Shown one piece after another: positions 14,760 through 28,424 of a stretch of DNA of 64,000 nucleotides. A program made the translations under genes and the position numbers. Under the pieces are notes generated by a model that saw only the letters and a program-made list of their open reading frames with translations, was not told the origin of the DNA and ran no database searches. This DNA is from Stigmatella aurantiaca. Lineage in GTDB: Bacteria > Myxococcota > Myxococcia > Myxococcales > Myxococcaceae. Position 1 is the stretch's first letter; every line of letters begins with the position of its first letter. Location: positions 124,001-188,000 of the forward strand of contig NZ_FOAP01000011.1 of assembly GCF_900109545.1 (NCBI RefSeq), read 5' to 3'.

Positions 14760-17006
14760 TCAGCGGGGCGGCCCATCCGAGGGCCCATGCGCGTGCTGAG
14801 CCCATGACAGCCAGCGCGCCAGGGCCTTCGGTGCCCACCAGTTGAAGCTCCCGAACAGGCGCATCATCGCGGGCACGAGCAGGATGCGGACCAGCGTCGC
14901 ATCCAGCGCCACGGCGATGGCCATGCCCACCCCCATGGCCTTCACCACCACCACGTGGGCCAGCGAGAACGCGGCGAACACGGCCACCATGATGGCCGCC
15001 GCGCTGGTGATGAGCCCCCCGGTGCGCTCCAGCCCCTCGGCCACCGCCTGGGTGTTGTCGCGGGTCCGCTCCCACTCCTCGCGCATCCGGCTGAGCAGCA
15101 GCACCTCGTAGTCCATCGACAGGCCGAACAGGGCGCAGAAGAGCAGCACCGGCAGCGAGGGCTCGATGGGGCCGGGCTCGAAGCCCAAGAGGCCGCTCAG
15201 GTGCCCCTCCTGGAAGATCCACACCAGCGCGCCGAAGGAACCCGCGATCGACAGCAGGTTCATGAGCATCGCCTTGAGGGGCAGCACCACCGAGCCCAGC
15301 AGGACGAAGAGCACCACGCACATCAGCCCCATCACGAAGCCAATGGCCCGGGGGGTGTTCTCGCGCACGAAGTGCCCCGCGTCCACGTCGCTCGCCGTCT
15401 GCCCCGCCACGAGCAGCCGTCCATCCCCCACCGCCCGGTCCTTGCGGATCGTCTCGACGATGTCCCGGGCGGCCTGGCTGGAGGCGGAGGCCTCGGTGAG
15501 CACCCGCATGACCGTCACGCTGCCGTGCAGGTACGCATCCCGGGCCTGGCCGAACTCCTTGGGCAGCATGTCCTCGGGAAAGTCGGCCAGTTCCTGGTAC
15601 GCCTCCCGGTCCATGCTCTCCTTGAGGTTGACGATGCTGTCGACGCCGAGGACGCCTGGAATGCCCGCGAGCTGGCGGCTCTTGTCGTAGAGCGCCCCCA
15701 TGCGCTCGGCGGTGAAGGCGCTGCCCGAGGGGAACTGCACCACCACCAGCACACCGTTGGCGGCCTGCCGGGGAAAGAGCTGCCGCAGGGACTCGGCGCC
15801 GCGCCGCGCCTCGGTCTCCGCGGGCAGGGCGGTGATGTCGGTGGCGGCCAGCTGGAGCCGCAGGAAGGGCAAGCCCACCGCCACGAGGATGGCCAGCGTG
15901 GGCACCAGCACCAGCACCGGATGGCGCATCACCCAGGTGGCCACGCCCTTCCACAGCCCCTCCTTGGGCTCGAACAGGCGCGGGAAGGGAACGCGGCCCC
16001 GGTTCACCCGGAGGCCCAGCCAGGACAGCAGCGCGGGCAGCACCGTCAGCGCGAACAGCACCGCGAAGGCGACGACGAGCGCACCGCCAATGCCCATCGC
16101 GCTGAGGTACGAGCCCCGGTAGAACAGCAGCCCCGCGAGCCCCACGGCCACGGCCAGCCCCGAGAAGGCCACCGCGCGCCCCGCCGTGTCGAGCGTCCGC
16201 TCCAGCGCCGCCTGGGTGTCCAGCCCCCGCTCCAGCTCCGAGCGGAAGCGGCTGACGATGAAGAGCGAGTAGTCGATGGCCACCCCCATGCCAATGAGGG
16301 ACACGACGTTGAGGGTGTACTGGGCCATGTCGGTGACGTGCGAGAGCACGAACACGCCCGCCACGCCCGAGAGCACCGCGAGCCCGCCCACCACCAGCGG
16401 CAGGAGCGAGGCCACCCACGTGCGGAAGACGCGCAGCAGCACCAGCAGCGCCAGCGGAAAGGAGATGAGCTCGGCGCGCAGCAGGTCCTTCTCCAGGAGC
16501 CGGTTCAGCGCGTCGATGAAGGCGATGCGCCCGGTGACGGTGGCCTGGAGCGGCCCCGTGCTCAGCACCGCGCGGACCTCGGGAAACGCCCGGGTGGCCT
16601 CGCGGATGTCCCCCTTGAGCCGGACGAGCGCCAGGGTGTCATGCCCGGTGCCAGCCTGGAGCTGCGCGGCCACCGCCTTGGGCGCGCCCAGGGGCGAGAG
16701 CACCCCCTCCACCGTGGGCAGCTTCGCGGTGGCCTCCAGCGTGGCCTTCAGTGCCTCCTGGAACTCAGGGCTTGCGCTGCGCAGGGTGTCCGAATGGAAG
16801 ACGACGGCCAGGGTGGTGTCGGAGGAGCCCACCGTGGTGGCCGCCGCGAGCTGCTGGGCCTGCTCCGCCTCGGTGCCCTCAATGACGCCGGTGCTGAGGC
16901 GTCCGCCGTACACGAGGGCGGCCACCGCCAGGGCGAGGAACACGGCGCTCGCCACGAACACGAGCCCCCGGTGGTGATGGATGGCCCTCGCGAGCGCGCG
17001 AAACAT
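14760..17006 (-). CDS. MMPL/RND-family lipid exporter in the sterol operon
   Basis: The 748-residue inner-membrane protein has the duplicated RND topology: TM1, a large periplasmic loop, five TMs, then a second copy. Both halves carry the MMPL proton-relay signature, GVAIDYSLFIVSRFRSEL in the first and GLSMDYEVLLLSRMREEW in the second, each with an Asp-Tyr pair. Relatives export complex lipids, for example MmpL3, the hopanoid transporter HpnN and the RND-type sterol transporter BstA of Methylococcus. The gene follows the oxidosqualene cyclase by 36 bp on the same strand. A sterol or sterol-derived cargo is therefore a reasonable inference, though not shown. The stop is 3 bp from the convergent lipoprotein gene. 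Confidence 0.88.
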   Translation of the reverse strand: MFRALARAIHHHRGLVFVASAVFLALAVAALVYGGRLSTGVIEGTEAEQAQQLAAATTVGSSDTTLAVVFHSDTLRSASPEFQEALKATLEATAKLPTVEGVLSPLGAPKAVAAQLQAGTGHDTLALVRLKGDIREATRAFPEVRAVLSTGPLQATVTGRIAFIDALNRLLEKDLLRAELISFPLALLVLLRVFRTWVASLLPLVVGGLAVLSGVAGVFVLSHVTDMAQYTLNVVSLIGMGVAIDYSLFIVSRFRSELERGLDTQAALERTLDTAGRAVAFSGLAVAVGLAGLLFYRGSYLSAMGIGGALVVAFAVLFALTVLPALLSWLGLRVNRGRVPFPRLFEPKEGLWKGVATWVMRHPVLVLVPTLAILVAVGLPFLRLQLAATDITALPAETEARRGAESLRQLFPRQAANGVLVVVQFPSGSAFTAERMGALYDKSRQLAGIPGVLGVDSIVNLKESMDREAYQELADFPEDMLPKEFGQARDAYLHGSVTVMRVLTEASASSQAARDIVETIRKDRAVGDGRLLVAGQTASDVDAGHFVRENTPRAIGFVMGLMCVVLFVLLGSVVLPLKAMLMNLLSIAGSFGALVWIFQEGHLSGLLGFEPGPIEPSLPVLLFCALFGLSMDYEVLLLSRMREEWERTRDNTQAVAEGLERTGGLITSAAAIMVAVFAAFSLAHVVVVKAMGVGMAIAVALDATLVRILLVPAMMRLFGSFNWWAPKALARWLSWAQHAHGPSDGPPR

Positions 17007-17042: not shown

Positions 17043-18995
17043 TTACCGCTTGTCGCACACCGCGAGCGCCCAGACGGGGAAGATCCGCAGGTAGGCGTCG
17101 TAATGAATGGCGCACGTCCGGTTGAAGATGCCGGCAATGGGCTCCGGCGGCCAGCGGCCGTCCGCTTGCTGGCGGCCGCGCAGCCACTGGGCGCCCCGCC
17201 GGGCGGAGTCAGAGGCCTGCTCCCCCGCCGCCGCGAGCGTCAGCAGCGCCCAGGCGGTGTTGACGGCATGGCCCTCCTTGCCTTCGACCCAGCGCCCCTG
17301 GCGGCAGCTCTCGACCACCTCGCTCCAGGAGCCATCGGACCGCTGGTAGGAGCGCAGGAACGCCGTGGCCCGGCGAAGCGCGGGGTCCTCCGGCGAGGCC
17401 CCGGCGGCCAGCAGGCCATTCACCCCGAACCACGTCCCATACGTGAAGCAGACGCCCCAGGAGCCCACCCACGAGCCGTCCTCGCGCTGGATCTTCCGGA
17501 TGAACGCCGCGCCCCGGGCGATGGCCTCGTCCACGCGGGCATCCGGGCGCTGGATGTGCTTGCGCCACGCGGCCAGGGCCTGCACGCACGCGGAGGTACA
17601 CTCCACGTAGCTGATATCCACCATGATGGTGGAGAAGACATCCGAGGGGTTGAGCACCTCGAGCACCTGGGGGCCGCGCTGAAGCTCGTAGGTGGCCCAG
17701 CCGCCATCCTTGTTCTGCATGGACAGGATGAACCCCACGGCGTCCTGGAGCCGGGCCTCGGACACGCGGTTGAGCCCCAACGGCGCCAGGGCGAGACAGG
17801 CCTTGAGCCCCTCCGCCGTGCAGTCGCTGATGGGCCAGCCGTGCTCCCGCGTGCTGAAGGGCCAGCCGCCCTTGCTGGGGTGGCGGTAGAAGCGCGCGGG
17901 CTCGCGTGTGTCCTCGAGCACCTGGTTGGCCTCGATGAACCGGGCGGCCTCCGCCAGCATGGGCCGGGTGGCCTCCGAGGCGCCGGTGGCCACCACCGCC
18001 TGGACGGCGAAGGCCGTGTCCCACAACTCCGAGGAGTTGTAGCCGTTCATCTTGATGCCGTCGGCCGCCTCGTAGAAGTAGTCCGGCAACCGCTCCAGGT
18101 GGGCGCGCACCTCGGGCCCCTCCGGGTTGACGAAGTGCCACACCACCATGTTGAGCACTTTGTTGATGGGGCCGATGCAGATGTAGTGCGTCGCCTCATC
18201 CTCGGCGCGGATCTGCTCCAGCGCGAAGTCGAGCGCGCGCTCCCGGAGCTGCTTCCCCGCCACCCGCTCATAACCCAGCATGAGCTGGTTGGCGGCCTTG
18301 AGCCACACCGTGCGCGGCGTATAGACATCCGTCGGCGACACGCGCTCGCGCGCGGCGGTCCAGTCCACCTGCGCGTAATCCCCGTCGAAGATTTCCCGCC
18401 GGATCGAGGCGAGCAGCGGCGACTCGGGGGCCCGGGCCTTGCGCCCATAGAGCCAGCTCATGGGCAGGTACACCATGCGGCAGTGGCACCAGAGCCGGGA
18501 CGGATGGAAGGGCAGCGACTCGGGCAGGAGCCACAGCTCGGGGGGCACCGGCTGCAGGCCGCGGTACTCGTACAGCCCCAGGAGCGCGAGGATGATCTTC
18601 CCCCACGCGCCACTGGCCAGCGCGCCGCCCCGGGGCAGGAACCACTGCCGGGCCCTTCTCAGCCCCGTGTTGTCCTCCGCCACCCCCATGAGCCGGAGGG
18701 CCACGTAGTTGAGCACCGAGGTGAACACCTGGCTGGGCGACTCGACATCCAGTCCCCAGCCCCCATCGGCGTTCTGGTGGCGGCGCAGGTACGCCACGAG
18801 CCCCTCGCGCTGCGCAGACTCCGGGACGCGCCCCATCACGTGCAACCCGGCGACATAGATGGGGATGAGGAACTGCGGCCCGCCGTAGTCTCCGTACCAC
18901 GAGCCCTCCGCGTCCTGGGTCGAGGCCAGCACCTCCAACCCGCGCTGGAGGATGGGCTCGGACCGGGGGACGCGGACCTCGGGGGCGGCGCTCAT
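17043..18995 (-). CDS. oxidosqualene cyclase, cycloartenol-synthase type
   Basis: The 650-residue terpene cyclase has several QW repeats, such as QNKDGGWATYE and QREDGSWVGSWGVCFTYGTW. The catalytic motif is DCTAE (Asp391), which marks oxidosqualene cyclases; squalene-hopene cyclases have DxDD. Residues that separate cycloartenol from lanosterol synthases are all of the cycloartenol type: Tyr319 in KMNGYNSS (plant Tyr410), His385 (His477) and Ile389 (Ile481), the last two in HGWPISDCTAE. It should fold 2,3-oxidosqualene into cycloartenol at the membrane. ATG at 18995 overlaps the squalene synthase stop as ATGA, so I reject the longer reading from 19034. S. aurantiaca is known to make cycloartenol. 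Confidence 0.92.
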   Translation of the reverse strand: MSAAPEVRVPRSEPILQRGLEVLASTQDAEGSWYGDYGGPQFLIPIYVAGLHVMGRVPESAQREGLVAYLRRHQNADGGWGLDVESPSQVFTSVLNYVALRLMGVAEDNTGLRRARQWFLPRGGALASGAWGKIILALLGLYEYRGLQPVPPELWLLPESLPFHPSRLWCHCRMVYLPMSWLYGRKARAPESPLLASIRREIFDGDYAQVDWTAARERVSPTDVYTPRTVWLKAANQLMLGYERVAGKQLRERALDFALEQIRAEDEATHYICIGPINKVLNMVVWHFVNPEGPEVRAHLERLPDYFYEAADGIKMNGYNSSELWDTAFAVQAVVATGASEATRPMLAEAARFIEANQVLEDTREPARFYRHPSKGGWPFSTREHGWPISDCTAEGLKACLALAPLGLNRVSEARLQDAVGFILSMQNKDGGWATYELQRGPQVLEVLNPSDVFSTIMVDISYVECTSACVQALAAWRKHIQRPDARVDEAIARGAAFIRKIQREDGSWVGSWGVCFTYGTWFGVNGLLAAGASPEDPALRRATAFLRSYQRSDGSWSEVVESCRQGRWVEGKEGHAVNTAWALLTLAAAGEQASDSARRGAQWLRGRQQADGRWPPEPIAGIFNRTCAIHYDAYLRIFPVWALAVCDKR

Positions 18996-20041
18996 GACGT
19001 CAGGGCTTCCGGCTGGAGGTTCCCCGACAGGCATTGCTGGTAGATCGCCCGCAGCGCCGGAGCCGACGCGACGTTGCGCTGGGTGAGCAGGATGATCTCC
19101 TGCACGGAGGCGCGGCTGATCTTCACCGGCGTGGGCTCGAACACGGCCGGGTTGTTCTCCAGCCGGGAGAGCGTGAGCACGGCGAAGAACAGGGGCAGCA
19201 GACAGAACAGCCGCAGGCCCGGCTCCTCCACGGGCAGGCGCAGCGCATACTCCAGCGAGAGGTCCGCCTCGCGCCGGGCCACGGCGATGAGCTCGTTGTG
19301 CATCGCCACCGCCCGTCCCCGATTTTCAGGGTTCAAGAGCGTGGGGGCGGTGAGCCCATGCGCCGACATGAGGGTCTGGGGAAGCCAGCAATAGCCCCGC
19401 TCCAAATCCTCGCGGACATCCTTGAGGATGTTGATGAGCTGCAGGGCCCGCCCGAACGCGGGGGCCAGCGCCCGGAGCGCTTCTCCCTGGGGCGCGAGCT
19501 GAGGCGCAAACCCAATGAAAAGATCCGTCAGCATTTCTCCGACCGTGCCCGCCACGTAGTAGCAGTAGGTCAATGTAGCCTCCAGGTCCTTCAGGCCACT
19601 GGCGGGAGGGGCCAGCTCGAGCTGGCGGCTCACATCGCCCATGCCATCGGCCATGGCGCGCACGCAGCGCACGATGGGAGGCTGGGTCCACCGGGGCAGG
19701 GCCGCGAAGGTCTCCAGCACGGTGCCCGTGCGGCGCAGCAGCCGCGCCTCGGGCTCCGGGACGGAAGGCCTCAGCCAGTGCTCGACCTCGGCGATATAGC
19801 GCGGCACCTCGTGGCGCCACCCCTCGGGCAGCTCCACGAAGTGGGCGAAGCGCGAGAGGAGTTGCGCGCGCTGCGCGGCGCTGCAGGTCGCCTCGTCCTC
19901 GATCGTATCGACGATCCGGCAGAGAAGGTAACCCACGGTAACAACGAGATCCAACGGCTCGGGGAGAACCGGGATGTTGAGGGCGAAGGTCCGAGAGACC
20001 TCGGGCAGCGCCTCGCGGCAGAAGGCTTCAGGGTTGCTCAT
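18992..20041 (-). CDS. squalene synthase (squalene/phytoene synthase family)
   Basis: The 349-residue product has both Asp-rich substrate motifs: DTIEDEAT in LLCRIVDTIEDEAT and DVREDLERGYCWLP. The squalene-synthase segment YCYYVAGTVGEMLTDLF and the N-terminal EVSRTFALNIPVL are also present. The tail has a hydrophobic stretch (LFCLLPLFFAVLTL). The enzyme joins two farnesyl diphosphates head to head; next to an epoxidase and a cyclase, squalene is the expected product, though phytoene synthase activity cannot be excluded. ATG at 20041 is preferred because longer readings run into the divergent epoxidase gene. The stop overlaps the cyclase start by 4 bp. Confidence 0.9.
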   Translation of the reverse strand: MSNPEAFCREALPEVSRTFALNIPVLPEPLDLVVTVGYLLCRIVDTIEDEATCSAAQRAQLLSRFAHFVELPEGWRHEVPRYIAEVEHWLRPSVPEPEARLLRRTGTVLETFAALPRWTQPPIVRCVRAMADGMGDVSRQLELAPPASGLKDLEATLTYCYYVAGTVGEMLTDLFIGFAPQLAPQGEALRALAPAFGRALQLINILKDVREDLERGYCWLPQTLMSAHGLTAPTLLNPENRGRAVAMHNELIAVARREADLSLEYALRLPVEEPGLRLFCLLPLFFAVLTLSRLENNPAVFEPTPVKISRASVQEIILLTQRNVASAPALRAIYQQCLSGNLQPEALTS

Positions 20042-20099: not shown

Positions 20100-21479
20100 A
20101 TGGGGAGCTTCTTGAATACGGACGTGGTCATCATCGGGGCAGGCCCGGCGGGCTGTGCAAGCGCGGCGGCATTGTCACAATTGGGCCATTCAGTTCTTCT
20201 TGTGGATGCGGGCCAAGACCGCGGCAAGCAGCTCGCCGGAGAGCTGCTCCACCCGCCAGGCGTGGAAGACTTGCGCACGCTGGGATTCGGGCCCGCGCTG
20301 GAGGCCTGCGCGGGCCAGCCCGTCCTGGGCTTCGCCGTCGTGGACACCCGGCGCGAGCAGCGCACCACGCAGCTGACCTACAACGGTTCGAGCCAGGGGC
20401 TGTCGCTGGAGCACGCGCGCTTCGTGTCGAGCCTGCTGGAGGCCGTCGAGCGGCTGCCGCGCGTCACCGTGTGGCGCAAGACGCGGCTCACCGAGCTGCA
20501 TCGCAACAATGCCGAGGGCGTGGAGTTCACGGTTGTCTGCGGTGGGGAACAGCGGCAGGTGCGCACACCTCTGCTGGTGGCGGCGGATGGGCGCAACTCC
20601 TTCGTCCGCAAGCTCCTGGGAATCCAGGAGCGGCACGAGCGGCTCTCCAGCATGGTGGGGGTGACGGTGGACGCGCGCGCCCTGCCCCACGCGGGCCATG
20701 GGCACATCTTCATCGGGGGCAATGCCCCGGTGCTCGCCTACGCCATCGAGGACGGCGTGGCGCGGGTGATGGTGGACATCCCCCTGGGCTCGACCGCGAA
20801 GCAACTGCATGCCTCCCCGGAGCTGCTCAACGGCGTGCCCCAGCCCCTGCGGGGCGCCATCCTGGAAGCGCTGGAGCGGGAAACCCCGCGTATGGCCTCG
20901 AATGACACGCGCCTGCCCCAGCGGGTGACGCAGGGCCGGGTGGTGCTCGTGGGAGATGCGGCGGGGTGCTGCCACCCGGTGAGTGCCAGTGGGATGGCCT
21001 CGGGCATCAGCGACGCCATGGCGCTCCAGCAGTCGCTGCGCGAGAGCCTCAACAACGTGCCGCGCGCCCTGCGCCGGTACGTGCAGCGCCGCCGGTCCGC
21101 CCAGCGCACGCGCATCGCCATGGCTTCTGCGCTCTATCAGGCGTTCTCCATCCAGCGCGAGGACATGGACGCGCTGCGGACGGGACTGCTCCGCTACTGG
21201 GAGGAGAGCACCACGGGCGGACGCAACTCCATGGAGCTGCTGTCCACGCGCGAGACGCGCATGTGGGTCATGGCGCGCGAGTACATGCGCGTGGTGGGCT
21301 ACGGCATCGGCGCGCTGACGTCGGAGGCCTTCAGCCACCAGCGCCGGGACTTCGAGACGCTCATGCGCGCGGGCACGGGCCTGGTGACGTCCGCGTTCCC
21401 CCACCTGCAGGGCTCGGCGCGGGGAGGCCTGGAGGACGCCTTCACGGCCTTCTCCGCCGGCCGGGAGTGGCGCCGGTGA
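20100..21479 (+). CDS. FAD-dependent squalene monooxygenase (squalene epoxidase)
   Basis: The 459-residue flavoprotein begins with the dinucleotide-binding motif VVIIGAGPAGCASAAAL. It has GELLHPPGVEDL, which matches the squalene-epoxidase GELLQPGG region. The second FAD motif, GDAAGCCHPVSASGMASG, corresponds to the GDA...HPLTGGGM box of the same family. It should insert oxygen into squalene to give 2,3-oxidosqualene, the substrate of the cyclase across the intergenic region. The C-terminal 100 residues are helical and amphipathic and may attach it to the membrane. It is divergent from squalene synthase and convergent with araH. Function rests on motifs plus context, since related FAD monooxygenases share much of the fold. 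Confidence 0.87.
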   Translation: MGSFLNTDVVIIGAGPAGCASAAALSQLGHSVLLVDAGQDRGKQLAGELLHPPGVEDLRTLGFGPALEACAGQPVLGFAVVDTRREQRTTQLTYNGSSQGLSLEHARFVSSLLEAVERLPRVTVWRKTRLTELHRNNAEGVEFTVVCGGEQRQVRTPLLVAADGRNSFVRKLLGIQERHERLSSMVGVTVDARALPHAGHGHIFIGGNAPVLAYAIEDGVARVMVDIPLGSTAKQLHASPELLNGVPQPLRGAILEALERETPRMASNDTRLPQRVTQGRVVLVGDAAGCCHPVSASGMASGISDAMALQQSLRESLNNVPRALRRYVQRRRSAQRTRIAMASALYQAFSIQREDMDALRTGLLRYWEESTTGGRNSMELLSTRETRMWVMAREYMRVVGYGIGALTSEAFSHQRRDFETLMRAGTGLVTSAFPHLQGSARGGLEDAFTAFSAGREWRR

Positions 21480-21498: not shown

Positions 21499-22449
21499 TT
21501 AGAGCCGTCGGCCCGTGGCGCGGGTGCGCAGGTTGTCGAGCAGCACGGCGAGCAGGAGAATCACCCCGCGCACCACGTACTGGTAGAAGGCTTGGATGTT
21601 CATCAGGTTCATCACGTTCTCCGCGATGCCCATGATGAGCACGCCCACCAGCACGCCGGAGATCGCCGCGCGCCCGCCCGCCAGGGATACGCCGCCCAAG
21701 ACGCAGGCGGAGATGACCGACAGCTCCAGCCCCTGAGCCGCGTTCGGCTGGCCACTGGTGATGCGCGAGGACAGCAGAATCCCCGCCACCGCGCACAGCA
21801 GCCCCTGGAGCGTGAAGATCCAGATGCGGATGGTGCCCACGTTGACGCCCGCGAGGCGCGAGGCATCCGGGTTGCCACCAATGGCCAGCGTGTTGCGCCC
21901 GAACACGGTGCGGTTGAGCACGAAACCGAAGAGGCCGAAGCAGAGCACCATGACGAGTACCGGCACGGGGATGCCCAGCGGCGCCGTCAGCGCGATGTTG
22001 AAGTAAGCCTCATCGTCCACGCCCACCGCGCGGCCATCGGAGGCAATCAACGCCGAGCCGCGGACGATCTGCATCGTGGCCAACGTGGTGATGAGGGCAT
22101 TGATGCGCAGCTTGGCGATCACCACGCCGTTGATAGCGCCCACCACGACGCCGGCGGCCAGGGCCGCCAGGATGCCCAGGAACAGGTTCTCGGTGCTGTT
22201 GGACACCATCACCGCGACCATGCCGGCGAAGGCCACCGTGGAGCCCACGGACAGGTCGAAGTCCCGCGAGGCCAGACACAGCATCATCGTGCAGGCGACG
22301 ATGCCAATGGTCACCACGGACTGGAGCAGGCCGAGGATGTTCCGCTGCGTCATGAAGCTGGGCACGGTGAGGCACACGATGCCGAGGGCCAGCAGGAACA
22401 GGATGACGAGCCCCTGCTCTCCGAGCACGGCCCTTTTCAAGCGATCCAT
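21499..22449 (-). CDS. araH: L-arabinose-type sugar ABC transporter permease AraH
   Basis: This 316-residue protein has about nine to ten hydrophobic helices and the BPD_transp_2 pattern of RbsC/AraH permeases, including ASRDFDLSVGSTVAFAGM and the C-terminal NIQAFYQYVVRGVILLLAVL, which is close to E. coli AraH. It would form the inner-membrane channel with AraG. ATG at 22449 is chosen because GAGAGGA lies 6 bp upstream. A TTG at 22464 overlapping the araG stop is the alternative. Third gene of the araFGH transcript; it converges with the epoxidase gene. Confidence 0.87.
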   Translation of the reverse strand: MDRLKRAVLGEQGLVILFLLALGIVCLTVPSFMTQRNILGLLQSVVTIGIVACTMMLCLASRDFDLSVGSTVAFAGMVAVMVSNSTENLFLGILAALAAGVVVGAINGVVIAKLRINALITTLATMQIVRGSALIASDGRAVGVDDEAYFNIALTAPLGIPVPVLVMVLCFGLFGFVLNRTVFGRNTLAIGGNPDASRLAGVNVGTIRIWIFTLQGLLCAVAGILLSSRITSGQPNAAQGLELSVISACVLGGVSLAGGRAAISGVLVGVLIMGIAENVMNLMNIQAFYQYVVRGVILLLAVLLDNLRTRATGRRL

Positions 22450-22460
22450 TCCCAATCCTC

Positions 22461-23960
22461 TCAAGCCGCCGTCCGGTCAGGCAGCGCTGCCGCCAGGATC
22501 TTCTCCTCGGAGAAGCCGGGGCGTTGAAACTCCGCAGCGATGCGGCCGCCGCACATCACCGCGATGCGGTCGCTGATGCCCATCACCTCGGGCAGCTCGC
22601 TGGAGATGACGATGAGCGCGATGCCCTGCTCCGCCAGGCCGTAGAGCACCTCGTAGATTTCACTCTTGGCCCCCACGTCGATGCCGCGCGTGGGCTCATC
22701 CACGATGAAGACCTTGATGCCCTGCTCGGACAGCCAGCGTGACAGGATGACCTTCTGCTGGTTGCCGCCCGACAGGTTCTCGATGGCCTGCTCGCGCGAG
22801 GGCGTGCGCACCCCGAGCCGCTGGATGAAGCGATCGGCCATCTCCCCTTCCCTTCGCGTATTCAGGATGCCGAAGGGCGAGAAGTGGCGGCGCGAGGAGA
22901 TGGCGATGTTCGCCTCCACCGACTGCCCCTGGAGGATGCCGTCAGCCTTGCGGTCCTCCGGGCACAGCACCAGGCCCGCGCGCACCGCCTGCCGGGGGTG
23001 GTGGATCCGCACCGGAACCCCGTCGATGCGCACCTCTCCCGCGGCGCGCGGGTCCGCGCCATACAGCAGCCGCGCCAGCTCACTGCGGCCCGCGCCCACC
23101 AGCCCGAAGAGGCCCAGAATCTCCCCGGCGCGCACCTCGAAGCCCGTGGGGGCCGTCAGGCGCGAGCCCTCCAGCCCCGACACGGAGAGCCGCACCGCGC
23201 CCGGCGTCCGGGGCCGCCAGCCCCAGATGTCCTGAATCTCGCGGCCCACCATCTCGCGCACCAGCGTCTCGCGCGTCAGCCCCTCCAGGGTGTCGTGCTG
23301 GGCCACGAGCCGGCCATCCCGCAGCACGACGCAGCCATCACACAGGCGGAAGATCTCATCCAGCCGGTGCGAGACATAGAGGATGACCTTGCCGGCCGCG
23401 CGCAGCCGGTTCACCAGCCGGAAGAGCACCTCGCTCTCGTGCGCGGAGAGCGAGGAGGTGGGCTCATCCAGGGCGATGACCGAGGCGTCGAAGATGGCCG
23501 CCTTGGCGATCTCCACCATCTGCCGGGTGCCCAGGGACAGGTCAGCGACCTTGGCCCGGGGGTCCACCTCGATGCCCGCCTCGCGCAGCACCGCGCCGAC
23601 CTTGGCGAACAGCTCCCCGTAGCGGACGACCCCGAACCGGGACGGGAAGCGGCCCAGCATGAGGTTCTCGGCCACCGTCAGCTCCGGCACGAGCTGGAGC
23701 TCCTGGTGGACGACCGTCACCCCCGCGGCAATCGAATCGCGCGTGGAGGAAAAGCGGTGGGCCTTTCCCCCGATGCGCAGCTCCCCCGTGTCGGGGGTGT
23801 AATCCCCCCCGAGAATCTTGATGAGCGTGGACTTGCCCGCACCGTTCTCGCCCAGCAGGCCGATGACCCGCCCGGACGGCACCGAGAAGCTCAGCTCCTT
23901 GAGGGCCCGGACGCCGGGGAAGCTCTTGGTGATGTTCGTGAACTCGAGAAACGGTGCCAT
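22461..23960 (-). CDS. araG: L-arabinose-type sugar ABC transporter ATPase AraG
   Basis: The 499-residue product has two ABC ATPase domains in tandem, as in sugar importers of the CUT2 group. The first has Walker A GENGAGKST, the signature DLSLGTRQMVE and Walker B VIALDEPTSS. The second has a degenerate Walker A (GLVGAGRSEL), the intact signature NLSGGNQQKV and FIVDEPTRGIDVGAK. The central block VLCPEDRKADGI is typical of AraG. It powers sugar import together with AraH. GGGAGG precedes the ATG. It lies 22 bp after araF. Ribose or another pentose/hexose is an alternative substrate, but the binding protein favours arabinose. Confidence 0.88.
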   Translation of the reverse strand: MAPFLEFTNITKSFPGVRALKELSFSVPSGRVIGLLGENGAGKSTLIKILGGDYTPDTGELRIGGKAHRFSSTRDSIAAGVTVVHQELQLVPELTVAENLMLGRFPSRFGVVRYGELFAKVGAVLREAGIEVDPRAKVADLSLGTRQMVEIAKAAIFDASVIALDEPTSSLSAHESEVLFRLVNRLRAAGKVILYVSHRLDEIFRLCDGCVVLRDGRLVAQHDTLEGLTRETLVREMVGREIQDIWGWRPRTPGAVRLSVSGLEGSRLTAPTGFEVRAGEILGLFGLVGAGRSELARLLYGADPRAAGEVRIDGVPVRIHHPRQAVRAGLVLCPEDRKADGILQGQSVEANIAISSRRHFSPFGILNTRREGEMADRFIQRLGVRTPSREQAIENLSGGNQQKVILSRWLSEQGIKVFIVDEPTRGIDVGAKSEIYEVLYGLAEQGIALIVISSELPEVMGISDRIAVMCGGRIAAEFQRPGFSEEKILAAALPDRTAA

Positions 23961-23982
23961 GCGCCTCCCACCGGCCCCGGGC

Positions 23983-24969
23983 TTACTGGAGGCCCAGCTC
24001 CTTGCGCACCGCCTGATAGGACTCGCGGGTGGCGAGCTTGCCGGAGGTGAGGATGAGCTTCTCCGGCTCCTTGTTCGTCGTCACCCAGTTGTACATGTTG
24101 AGGGCCGTCTCGTAGCCGTGGCGCTTGGGCGAGATGATGATGCTGCCGTAGAAGCCCGTGGGGCTCGGCTTCTTGAACTCGTTGATGGCCGAGTCCGAGC
24201 CGCCGATGCCCACGGCGACCATGTCCGCGGCCTTCAGGCCCGCGGCCTCGGAGGCCCGGACGGCGCCGAGCACCGCCTCGTCATTGAGGCCGAAGGCCAC
24301 CCACTTCTTGAGGCCGGCGTTCTTGTTGAGCACCACGCTGGCGGCATTGAGCGCCGCCTCGGTGTCGGTCTTGCTCTGGGGCGCATCGAAGATGTTCGAG
24401 GCCACGAACCCGTTCTGCTTCAGCACGGCGATGGCGCCCTCGACGCGGTCCTTCGCGGTGGGAAGCTGATCATACGAGACGCGGATGGCGCCCACGTCCT
24501 TCATGTTCCAGCCGCGCGCTTTGATCTGCTCCACGATGGCCTGCCCCACCGCCTCGCCAATCTTGGTGGCGGAGATGCCCATGTGCGGCACGTTCTCCAG
24601 CGGCTTGCCCTTGCTGTTCACCAGCCGGTCATCCACCGTCATCAGCTTGAGCTGGTTGGAGGTGGCGCGCGCCACCAGGCCCGGCCCCAGCTTCACGTCC
24701 GGCGTGCAGATGATGACGCCCTGAGCGCCCTGCGCCCCCAGGTTGTCGATGGCGGACAGCGCCTTCTCACCGTCCTCGGCGCCAATCTTCACCAGGGTGA
24801 AGCCCTTCTCCTTCGCGGCCACATCCGCGAACTTCCACTCGTCCTGGAACCAGGGCTCCTCGGGCTGTTTGACGACGAAGCCAATCTTGACATCGGCCGC
24901 CGAGGAAACCGCCGACACCATGAGCACGGACATGGCACAGGCTCTGAACAAGTTCTTCACGAAGCGCAT
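23983..24969 (-). CDS. araF: L-arabinose-binding periplasmic protein AraF
   Basis: This 328-residue protein has a signal peptide of about 24 residues ending near SAVSSAA. The mature N-terminus KIGFVVKQPEEPWFQDEWKF is nearly the E. coli AraF sequence, and VDDRLVNSKGKPLENVPHM and TGFYGSIIISPKRHGYE also match. It delivers L-arabinose, and possibly galactose or fucose, to AraG/AraH. ATG at 24969 has GGAGA 6 bp upstream, so I reject the 14-residue extension to 25011. The gene is 76 bp after tlyA, and that gap holds a consensus TTGACA. No araBAD or araC is in the window. Confidence 0.9.
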   Translation of the reverse strand: MRFVKNLFRACAMSVLMVSAVSSAADVKIGFVVKQPEEPWFQDEWKFADVAAKEKGFTLVKIGAEDGEKALSAIDNLGAQGAQGVIICTPDVKLGPGLVARATSNQLKLMTVDDRLVNSKGKPLENVPHMGISATKIGEAVGQAIVEQIKARGWNMKDVGAIRVSYDQLPTAKDRVEGAIAVLKQNGFVASNIFDAPQSKTDTEAALNAASVVLNKNAGLKKWVAFGLNDEAVLGAVRASEAAGLKAADMVAVGIGGSDSAINEFKKPSPTGFYGSIIISPKRHGYETALNMYNWVTTNKEPEKLILTSGKLATRESYQAVRKELGLQ

Positions 24970-24989
24970 GTTTTCTCTCCAAGGCGGAA

Positions 24990-25017
24990 CGGCGGTGAGA
25001 CGGGCTGTCAACCGCCG
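24990..25017 (-). promoter_or_regulatory. hairpin and TTGACA upstream of araF
   Basis: The 76 bp between tlyA and araF hold an inverted repeat on the minus strand (CGGCGGT - 14 bp - ACCGCCG). Its loop begins with a perfect -35 hexamer, TTGACA, at 25006-25011. No good -10 hexamer follows at 16-18 bp, so the promoter is only suggested. The dyad could be an operator for sugar control or a weak terminator for tlyA, since no U-tract follows. Confidence 0.35.
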
Positions 25018-25786: not shown

Positions 25787-27534
25787 CGTCCCATCTCCAG
25801 CAGGGCCCTCCCGGCCTGCCGCATCCCCGCGGCATCCAGCCCCAGCTCCGAGCGCTGTGTCCGCGCGTCCCCATGCGGGACAAAGGCATCGGGCAGGCCC
25901 ATCAGCCGCACGCGCGGGGAAAGCCCCTGCGCGGCGTAGAGCTCCAGCACCGCGCTGCCCAGCCCGCCGCGAATCGTCCCCTCCTCCACCACCACCACGT
26001 GCCCGCACGCCGCGGCCTCCCGCAGGGCGGGCGCATCCAGCGGGCTCACCCAGCGCGCATCCAGCACGCTCCAGCCGGGCTCGCCTTGAGCGGCCTCCAG
26101 CGCGGCCAGGGCCAGCGGCCCCAGGGCCACCAGCGTGAGCCGCGGCGCCTCGGCCCGGCGCAACCAGCGGGCCCCCTGCACGGAGCCCGTCCCGGCCGCG
26201 TGCAGCTCCGGCGGCAGCGCGGGCAAGGTGCCCCGGGGAAAGCGGATGACGCTGGGCCCGGTCGCCGCGAGCGCGGTGGCCAGCATGGGCGCCACGTCCT
26301 CTCCCACCACCGGGGCCATCAAGGACAGCCCGGGCAGCGCCCGGAGGGACGAGACGTCGTACGTCCCCTGGTGCGTGGCGCCGTCCGCCCCCACGAGCCC
26401 CGCCCGGTCCACCGCGAAGACCACGGGCAGCCCGGGCAGGCACACGTCGTGGACCACCTGGTCGAACGCGCGCTGAAGGAAGGTGGAGTAGATGGCGCAC
26501 ACGGGCCGGGCCCCCGCCGCCGCGAGCCCCGCGCAGAAGGTGACGGCGTGCTGCTCGGCGATGCCCACGTCGTGCACGCGGTCCGGATAGCGGGCCTTCA
26601 GCCCCACCAGCGCGGAGCCCTCCAGCATGGCGGGCGTCACCACCACCACGCGGGGGTCCACGGCCATGGCGTCGTCCAGGGCGGCGGCGAAGGCCTCGCT
26701 GAAGGTGCGCTGGCCACCGCGCGAGCGCACGAGCTTCCCATCCCGCCACTCATAGGGCCCCATGGCGTGGCCGCGCGTCTGCGTGTCCGCCTCCGCGGGG
26801 GGAAAGCCGCGGCCCTTCTGGGTCATCGCGTGCACCACCACCGGCCGGGAGGACTGGCGCGCCTCGCGCAGCACCGGCAGCAGCGCCCCCAGGTCATGCC
26901 CATCCACCGGCCCCAGGTAGGTGAAGCCCAGGGCCTCGAAGAAGGCGCGGGCCTGCCGGGTGCGCAGGAGCGCCGGAATGGCGCCCACGTTGGCCGAGAT
27001 GGACATCTGGTTGTCGTTGAGCAGCACCACCAGCGGCAGGTGCGAGCCGCCCGCGTTGTTCAGCCCCTCGAAGGACAGCCCTCCGGTGAGCGCCCCGTCG
27101 CCCAGCACGGCCACCACGTGCCCGGCGCGGCCCAGCTGGCGCCGGCCCTGGAGCATGCCGAGCGCGGCGGAGACGGCGGTGCAGGAGTGGCCCGCGGCGA
27201 GCGCGTCCAGGGGGCTCTCGCGCGGATCCAGGAAGGGCGCGATGCCACCGGCCTGCCGGAGCGTGCCCATGCGCTCGCGCCGCCCCGTGAGCAGCTTGTG
27301 CGCATAGGCCTGGTGCCCCACATCGAAGAGCAGTGCGTCCTGGGGGGAGTGGAACACCCGGTGCAGGGCCACCACCAGCTCCACGGCCCCCAGGGAGGCC
27401 CCGAGGTGGCCGCCCACGCGGCCACACACGGTGATGATCTCCTCCCGGAGCTCCTCGCACAGTTGCGGCAGGCCGGACTCGGGAAGGCTCCGGACGTCCG
27501 CGGGCGAGAGAATTCGCGGGAGGAGCCCCGTCAC
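25783..27534 (-). CDS. dxs: 1-deoxy-D-xylulose-5-phosphate synthase, unusually short
   Basis: The 583-residue thiamine-diphosphate enzyme condenses pyruvate and glyceraldehyde 3-phosphate. Conserved landmarks include GGHLGASLG with the catalytic His, DVGHQAYAHKLLTGR, the ThDP motif GDGALTGGLSFEGLNNAG, GPVDGHD, and the transketolase centre VGADGATHQG. It is about 40 residues shorter than usual. The segment between SANVGAI and FFEALGF is only about a dozen residues, where E. coli DXS has a long flexible loop. GTG at 27534 overlaps the ispA stop as GTGA, so upstream in-frame sequence belongs to ispA. The product serves isoprenoids, thiamine and PLP. Confidence 0.9.
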   Translation of the reverse strand: MTGLLPRILSPADVRSLPESGLPQLCEELREEIITVCGRVGGHLGASLGAVELVVALHRVFHSPQDALLFDVGHQAYAHKLLTGRRERMGTLRQAGGIAPFLDPRESPLDALAAGHSCTAVSAALGMLQGRRQLGRAGHVVAVLGDGALTGGLSFEGLNNAGGSHLPLVVLLNDNQMSISANVGAIPALLRTRQARAFFEALGFTYLGPVDGHDLGALLPVLREARQSSRPVVVHAMTQKGRGFPPAEADTQTRGHAMGPYEWRDGKLVRSRGGQRTFSEAFAAALDDAMAVDPRVVVVTPAMLEGSALVGLKARYPDRVHDVGIAEQHAVTFCAGLAAAGARPVCAIYSTFLQRAFDQVVHDVCLPGLPVVFAVDRAGLVGADGATHQGTYDVSSLRALPGLSLMAPVVGEDVAPMLATALAATGPSVIRFPRGTLPALPPELHAAGTGSVQGARWLRRAEAPRLTLVALGPLALAALEAAQGEPGWSVLDARWVSPLDAPALREAAACGHVVVVEEGTIRGGLGSAVLELYAAQGLSPRVRLMGLPDAFVPHGDARTQRSELGLDAAGMRQAGRALLEMGR

Positions 27535-28424
27535 GACCTCCGCTCCACCACGTAGCGGGCGAGCGCCGCCAGCGGCCCCCCCGCCCCTTCCAGCGGCTCC
27601 ACGGCGGCCACGGCCTCGGCCACCTTGTCCGCGGCCATCTTCCGGGACGCCTCCATGCCCACCACCGCCGGGAAGGTGAAGCGGCCCGCGGCCGAGTCCG
27701 CCCCCACGGGCTTGCCCATCGTCTCGGCGGTCGCCGTCACGTCCAGGATGTCGTCGGCGATCTGGAAGGCCAGGCCGATGGCATCGCCATAGGTGGTCGC
27801 CCGGGCGAGCGCATCCGCGCTGCCCCCTGCGCCCAGCACGCCCATGCGGCAGGAGGCGCGCAGCAGCGCCCCGGTCTTCATCCGGTGCAGGCGCGTGAGG
27901 TAGTCCAGGTGCGCGGGCCGGTCCTCGGCCACATCCAGCACCTGTCCGCCCACCATGCCCGCCGCGCCCGCGGCCTGGGCCAGCTCGCCGCACAGCAGCC
28001 CGCGAACCGCCTCCGGCCCCGAGCCCAGCAGCGTGAAGGCCTCCGTGAGGAGCGCATCGCCCGCGAGCAGCGCCAGCCCCTCGCCATACACCTTGTGGTT
28101 GGTGGGGCGGCCCCGGCGCAGGTCGTCGTTGTCCATGGACGGCAGGTCGTCATGCACCAGCGAGTAGGTGTGGATGTACTCCACGGCGCACGCCGCGTCC
28201 TCGACCGGGCCCAGCGTGGTGCTCTGCCGGGAGGTGGCCTCGGCGAACGTCAGGCACAGCACCGGCCGCAGGCGCTTGCCGCCCGCCAGCAGCGAGTAGC
28301 GCATCGACTCCGCCAGGCGCGGGGGCGTTCCCGCGGGCTCCAGCCGGTCGGCGCGGGCCTTCAACAAGGCCTCGACGCGAGCCTGCTGGGTGGCGAGAAA
28401 GGACTCCAGGTCAAAGGTGCTCAT
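27531..28424 (-). CDS. ispA: polyprenyl diphosphate synthase, farnesyl type (IspA)
   Basis: The 297-residue cytosolic prenyltransferase has the first Asp-rich motif in LVHDDLPSMDNDDLRRGRPT and the second in FQIADDILDVT. Those features, the residues just before the first motif and the length all fit short-chain farnesyl or geranylgeranyl diphosphate synthases. It builds FPP from IPP and DMAPP. The start overlaps the response regulator stop as ATGA, and the stop overlaps dxs. FPP is the substrate of the squalene synthase about 8 kb away. Chain length is inferred. Confidence 0.9.
   Translation of the reverse strand: MSTFDLESFLATQQARVEALLKARADRLEPAGTPPRLAESMRYSLLAGGKRLRPVLCLTFAEATSRQSTTLGPVEDAACAVEYIHTYSLVHDDLPSMDNDDLRRGRPTNHKVYGEGLALLAGDALLTEAFTLLGSGPEAVRGLLCGELAQAAGAAGMVGGQVLDVAEDRPAHLDYLTRLHRMKTGALLRASCRMGVLGAGGSADALARATTYGDAIGLAFQIADDILDVTATAETMGKPVGADSAAGRFTFPAVVGMEASRKMAADKVAEAVAAVEPLEGAGGPLAALARYVVERRS

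Follow-up and report, generated by a model that had tools for sequence, protein, structure and literature searches.

The cyclase gene and its cassette

The window, by which we mean the whole stretch of 64,000 nucleotides analysed here (part of contig 11, 124001-188000, of a host genome of 9.37 Mb in 61 contigs), contains an oxidosqualene cyclase gene together with genes for squalene supply and a transporter. In window coordinates, these features are:

14760-17006, minus strand: MmpL3-like RND transporter, candidate exporter of a sterol or other lipid (PF03176, 247 bits)
17043-18995, minus strand: oxidosqualene cyclase, predicted cycloartenol synthase, 650 amino acids (TIGR03463, 1007 bits; PF13243 and PF13249)
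17811-17825, minus strand: DCTAE catalytic motif, residues 391-395 (translation; Asp present in all 106 aligned sequences)
17829-17831, minus strand: codon of Ile389, human V453 column (translation and alignment)
17841-17843, minus strand: codon of His385, human C449 column (translation and alignment)
18039-18041, minus strand: codon of Tyr319, human T381 column (translation and alignment)
18992-20041, minus strand: squalene synthase-like gene (PF00494, 166 bits), overlapping the cyclase start (ATGA)
20100-21479, plus strand: squalene epoxidase-like FAD monooxygenase gene (PF08491, 96 bits, cut-off 20.1), divergent from the synthase gene

The open reading frame of the cyclase, counted from its first ATG, covers 17043-19034, and a second ATG lies at 18995. 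The latter appears to be the likelier start because it overlaps the stop codon of the upstream squalene synthase gene, and it yields the protein of 650 amino acids. With TIGR03463, the model for bacterial 2,3-oxidosqualene cyclases, the protein scores well above the cut-off of 851, and its 280 bits with the squalene-hopene cyclase model TIGR01507 fall below the cut-off of 431, which rules out a hopene cyclase at 17043-18995. It carries DCTAE in place of DxDD, the two motifs that mark oxidosqualene and hopene cyclases, respectively, and the DCTAE aspartate is Asp391. The first-pass annotation had placed the length of the protein nearer to that of hopene cyclases, but 650 amino acids is ordinary (TIGR03463 has 634 positions, and about 600-650 amino acids are given for bacterial enzymes in PMC4919349); as this is the usual length of bacterial oxidosqualene cyclases, it says nothing about hopene cyclases. 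A PF13243 search of all 61 contigs gave two matches, both within the cyclase gene, and no second squalene cyclase. Elsewhere in the family, two genomes hold hopene-cyclase-like frames of about 1020 amino acids with DADD or DPDD motifs (L167 in G092 and L168 in G079).

The squalene synthase-like protein passes PF00494, and its 116 bits with the squalene synthase model TIGR01559 lie below the cut-off of 286.75. For the protein encoded at 20100-21479, no NCBIfam squalene epoxidase model was among the best 25 of the 87 matches listed. The order of the cassette, an epoxidase gene diverging from a run of synthase, cyclase and transporter genes, is kept in three genomes of the same genus (G036, G037 and G038). 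The epoxidase (E<=1e-20) was present in five of five checked genomes with a cyclase, and at the same threshold it was not found in four of four checked genomes without one (G035, G039, G040 and G041). These four, of which G039, G040 and G041 belong to the same genus as the host, are without epoxidase, cyclase and transporter alike, and the cassette therefore seems to have been gained or lost as a block. The substrate of the cyclase could be supplied from within the cassette: the squalene synthase would form squalene, which the FAD enzyme would convert to 2,3-oxidosqualene.

About 6 kb from the cassette lies a farnesyl diphosphate synthase-like gene (27531-28424; NF045485, 307 bits, cut-off 275), a possible source of the precursor. 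The cassette is adjoined by genes for a sugar-type ABC transporter (21499-25011; permease, ATPase and binding protein), which also lie beside the cassette in G037 and, separated from it by some 2.9 kb of additional sequence, in G038; the stretch around the cassette in G036 holds none. Two Cystobacter-like loci, L043 (in G032) and L044 (in G034, which we take to be Cystobacter), carry other versions of these three enzymes, with 31-32% identity for the epoxidase, 40% for the synthase and 58-60% for the cyclase. In L043 the cyclase gene is directly preceded by a frame of 1197 amino acids (L043:5057-8650) that comprises a squalene epoxidase, a middle part with weak cyclase-type matches and a squalene synthase; in L044 and in L067, from a Polyangiaceae MAG, the epoxidase likewise continues to the synthase without a stop.

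The linked transporter and glycosyltransferase

The transporter gene begins 36 bases past the cyclase stop. The closest solved structures to its product are MmpL3 chains (262 bits), and because its 319 bits with NF052608, the model for the MmpL3 trehalose monomycolate exporter, lie below the cut-off of 1400, we label it only as MmpL3-like. HpnN is ruled out by two models (69 and 40 bits against cut-offs of 752 and 1100). The sterol transporter BstA of Methylococcus likewise belongs to the MMPL/RND proteins, and its gene has sterol genes as neighbours (PMC10942540), whereas the window protein is closest to MmpL3, and the BstA model NF045600 (cut-off 1400) is not among the six families that match it at E<=0.001, which rules out this identity as well.

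To describe how the transporter is distributed, we searched 96 genomes of the family with TIGR03463. At E<=0.001 there were matches in 83 of them, mostly short pieces, and 28 scored above the cut-off. Taking a match of at least 480 bits as a cyclase, and one of at least 819 bits as close with the rest as distant, we found a cyclase in 47 genomes (33 close and 14 distant) and none in the other 49. The transporter (E<=1e-100, with no more than 11 candidates considered in any genome) is present in 35 of the 96: all 33 with a close cyclase, two of the 14 with a distant one (G011 and G088) and none of the 49 without. In genus g19, the five of 27 genomes that have the cyclase are the same five that have the transporter. 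Fisher values for this co-occurrence are not literal, the genomes being non-independent by shared ancestry. The cyclase and transporter matches are 47-48 bases apart in seven genomes, 3.6-5.5 kb apart on the same strand in 19, and on separate contigs in seven. In two genomes the transporter match holds one TGA each (G057:C10:222831-225026 and G058:C6:473595-475817), and these genes are possibly broken.

In Corallococcus, Myxococcus, Citreicoccus and some MAGs, a gene of glycosyltransferase family GT21, the family of ceramide glucosyltransferases, lies between the epoxidase and transporter genes. The example at L040:13398-14597 passes PF13506 (GT21) with 85.9 bits, and its 118.5 bits with TIGR03472, the model for the hopanoid glycosyltransferase HpnI, stay below the cut-off of 310, for which we call it HpnI-like. 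At E<=1e-40, GT21 was found in 27 of the 96 family genomes, namely 25 of the 33 with a close cyclase, two of the 14 with a distant one (G047 and G087) and none of the 49 lacking a cyclase; in a 26th genome with a close cyclase, G021, a GT21 fragment stands at a contig end (seen in L054). In 23 of these 25 genomes the GT21 match adjoins that of the transporter, with spacings between a 22-base overlap and a 74-base gap; in the other two the matches are on separate contigs. The same threshold gave no GT21 in four Stigmatella-like (G000, G036, G037 and G038) and three Cystobacter-like genomes (G032, G033 and G034). Farther afield, a 48% relative lies 6.3 kb from the cyclase in a Myxococcales MAG (L082), and GT21 is also present in G103, which has no cyclase match, and in G111, where it lies on a contig other than that of the distant cyclase (AHV, L181).

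The linked transporter may move the sterol, and would then take it, or a derivative, across the inner membrane. A substantial possibility, though one we rate somewhat short of even, is that it exports another lipid, such as a ceramide glycolipid, and stands near the cyclase only through shared inheritance of a block. The family to which the adjoining GT21 belongs favours this alternative, as do genomes in our survey of 195 from the phylum. Transporters of 51-55% identity occur in G122, G151, G152, G153 and G155, none of which has an oxidosqualene cyclase match at E<=1e-100; PF13243 has no match in G122, G151 and G153, a weak one in G152 and one of 88.7 bits in G155. Weaker kin (37-41%) are found in G107 and G183-G186, with no cyclase among the matches listed. 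In G151 (L171), the transporter and glycosyltransferase matches are 29 bases apart and there is no squalene cyclase match, which argues against a sterol-only role; in some lineages the transporter-transferase pair thus acts, or once acted, on a different substrate.

Against export of another lipid stands the absence of the transporter from every cyclase-less genome of the family, including 22 of the 27 in genus g19. The Cystobacter-like genus speaks against it too: its epoxidase, synthase and cyclase are of another lineage, and a union of its cyclase with the Myxococcaceae core of the tree described below is rejected (p-AU 0.006), yet in L043 and L044 a transporter of 66-67% identity directly follows the cyclase, with 47 bases between the two matches, and falls inside the cassette clade (nine rows, 100/99). 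Outside the family, the transporter lies within 3 kb of a cyclase in G154 and G189, and since the G189 cyclase (L169) reads YQV, the transporter does not go with cycloartenol alone.

Proteins for the transport and regulation of bacterial sterols are described as little known in the available text of PMC12004948, and the linked transporter, together with the GT21 of sister genera, bears on the transport gap. In the open-licence literature, searched through titles and the beginnings of abstracts, we found nothing that links such a transporter or GT21 to myxobacterial sterol genes. The transporter gene that travels with the cyclase is the less expected part of the locus and more interesting than the cyclase itself.

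The product of the cyclase

Human lanosterol synthase (1w6k) belongs to the same family, shares DCTAE and scores 597 bits against the window cyclase. In their alignment, Tyr319, His385, Ile389 and Asp391 occupy the columns of human T381, C449, V453 and D455, so the human enzyme (732 residues) reads T/C/V where the window enzyme (650) reads Y/H/I. The three positions are presumably residues 410, 477 and 481 of the plant enzyme. The motif and the three residues had been named in the first-pass annotation, and both the translation from the 18995 start and the alignment place them exactly as it numbered them. The human numbering of the positions and their meaning follow PMC4919349, by which Y/H/I at 381, 449 and 453 is the residue set of a cycloartenol synthase. 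Found in a protein that passes TIGR03463, DCTAE with this triple is, on sequence grounds, not a chance motif.

Y/H/I is not special to the window cyclase. From the 122 relatives confirmed in one scan we retained 80, so that the sample leans towards the kin of the window, and from all loci we aligned matches of at least 560 amino acids after removing identical or contained ones and leaving near copies in. Of the 104 aligned bacterial cyclases, window included, 94 read Y/H/I (in this sample leaning to the window's relatives), the others being YQV (four), YNV (two), AHV (two), EQV and YNT (one each). In the same columns the human enzyme has TCV and 8j5z, a plant structure, FHL; all 106 sequences share the Asp. 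Kin of known producers share the triple: Stigmatella-like L034, Cystobacter-like L043 and L044, Methyloceanibacter L131 and the Crocinitomicaceae MAG L109.

A cycloartenol synthase of Stigmatella aurantiaca was reportedly described by Bode et al. in 2003. We take G037 to be S. aurantiaca DW4/3-1; its enzyme is 85% identical to the window cyclase and its gene order is the same. In S. aurantiaca, STAUR_5418 is the cyclase and STAUR_5420 the epoxidase (PMC4919349). The window cyclase is probably a direct orthologue of STAUR_5418, which belongs to a species other than the window host, and the product of the window enzyme is a prediction. Both Stigmatella and Cystobacter make cycloartenol, and among the strains tested Ile at human position 453 goes with cycloartenol and Val with lanosterol, the correlation for Ile being complete (PMC4919349). 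This residue rule is a correlation with few tested bacteria behind it. The bacterial cycloartenol synthases of Group 2c (Wei et al., 2016; PMC4919349) have the same residues, and the window cyclase shares a supported clade with Methyloceanibacter; nothing in the available text sets them apart in kind from the window cyclase. Myxococcaceae cyclases have also been described as monophyletic, vertically inherited and predicted cycloartenol synthases (PMC12004948). The cyclase finding is thus already known in kind, one further expected member of a published set, and the hope of the earlier annotation for a clean test of sterol evolution had been overtaken by the published cycloartenol of Stigmatella and the Ile rule (PMC4919349).

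The window enzyme very probably folds oxidosqualene to cycloartenol, and the bacterial cycloartenol formation put forward in the first-pass annotation is well supported by the full residue set and the same-genus orthologue. Asp391 would protonate the epoxide and so start the ring cascade, and Tyr319, His385 and Ile389 would favour deprotonation at C-19, with closure of the cyclopropane ring, over loss of a proton from C-8 or C-9. This mechanism of C-19 versus C-8 or C-9 deprotonation is known from studies of the plant and human enzymes. What we observe is the set of genes and its arrangement, the residues and the family membership; from these we infer a cyclase with cycloartenol as its main product, a substrate supply within the cassette and a transporter that would move the sterol or a derivative over the inner membrane, an explanation that we hold with considerable confidence as a whole.

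That lanosterol or parkeol is instead the main product, or that a mixture is formed, with second-shell residues outweighing the three, seems improbable. Strains of C. fuscus have earlier been reported with either lanosterol or cycloartenol (PMC4919349), and the rule itself is correlative; however, all three positions of the window cyclase show the residues of cycloartenol synthases, and cycloartenol is what the nearest of the tested genera produce. As to later steps, downstream genes are given as absent in Myxococcaceae except for a C-24 reductase homologue in Cystobacter (PMC12004948), and an ERG11 and an ERG25 homologue are listed for S. aurantiaca (PMC4919349). The C-14 reductase model PF01222 has no match in the host genome, but it has none in the control genomes either.

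A further point against the cycloartenol explanation is C. coralloides, in which squalene and no sterol-like molecules were found although epoxidase and cyclase, with the key residues, are conserved (PMC4919349). The linked transporter and GT21 offer a concrete way into this puzzle of genes without sterol. The cyclase of Myxococcaceae may belong to a cassette that makes and exports a modified sterol, with the GT21 of Corallococcus, Myxococcus and Citreicoccus adding a sugar before MmpL3-like transport, so that the sterol of these genera would be stored or exported as a glycoside, an idea that we put forward tentatively and consider rather unlikely. A glycosylated sterol would escape GC-MS of unhydrolysed cell extracts, so that glycosylation and export would account for the genes without detected free sterol in C. 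coralloides, and the lack of GT21 in the presumed Stigmatella and Cystobacter genomes would explain the free cycloartenol there. For C. coralloides, the available methods text of PMC4919349 describes cell pellets with the supernatant discarded and acetylated or silylated extracts, and no hydrolysis step. These data would be consistent with a sugar-bearing sterol and also with silent genes, the suggestion of the authors of that study (PMC4919349). If the sterol is indeed glycosylated, surveys of free sterols undercount sterol-making bacteria.

Tree placement and origin

The cyclases were placed in a 48-row IQ-TREE phylogeny under a mixture model, with the root placed on L176 and L181. The remaining 60 of 108 rows were left out, 58 of them cyclases picked by hand (mostly near kin of kept ones) and two hopene-cyclase-like, and the larger cyclase set was treed with FastTree. 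The window cyclase groups with L035 (100/99) and then with same-genus L034 (100/100). The Myxococcaceae set of eight rows (99/94) lies inside a bacteria-only clade of 34 rows (98/93), and the clade common to the window cyclase and Methyloceanibacter has 20 rows (100/96). The human and plant enzymes, the only two eukaryotic sequences included, fall on another branch (11 rows, 99/96) together with Bacteroidota, Methylothermaceae and a single Myxococcales MAG, where they are not sisters, with middling support. Forcing the core eight and the two eukaryotic rows together, groups that like all those in the AU test were named after seeing a tree, cost 123 log units and was rejected (p-AU 2.6e-6).

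The bacteria-only clade and the rejected union make a recent plant origin of the cyclase unlikely. Acquisition in recent times from a plant or other eukaryote, to which the plant-type residue set might point, is scarcely credible given that placement and given that Y/H/I is the common bacterial state in our sample. The first-pass annotation had allowed for an ancestral or a transferred enzyme, and recent transfer from plants drops out, judged against two eukaryotic sequences. Its interpretation as a whole holds in part: cycloartenol formation stands, the clean test and the argument from length do not.

The Cystobacter-like L043 cyclase, whose union with the core was rejected as given above, groups with a Polyangiaceae MAG (97/96). 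If L043 is Cystobacter, this placement would speak against the single vertical clade described in the available text of PMC12004948. Two cyclases that read Y/Q/V, L169 and L187, branch as the sister group of the Myxococcaceae Y/H/I clade (96/93); with a lanosterol-type residue where that clade has Ile, they may mark a change of product in nature.
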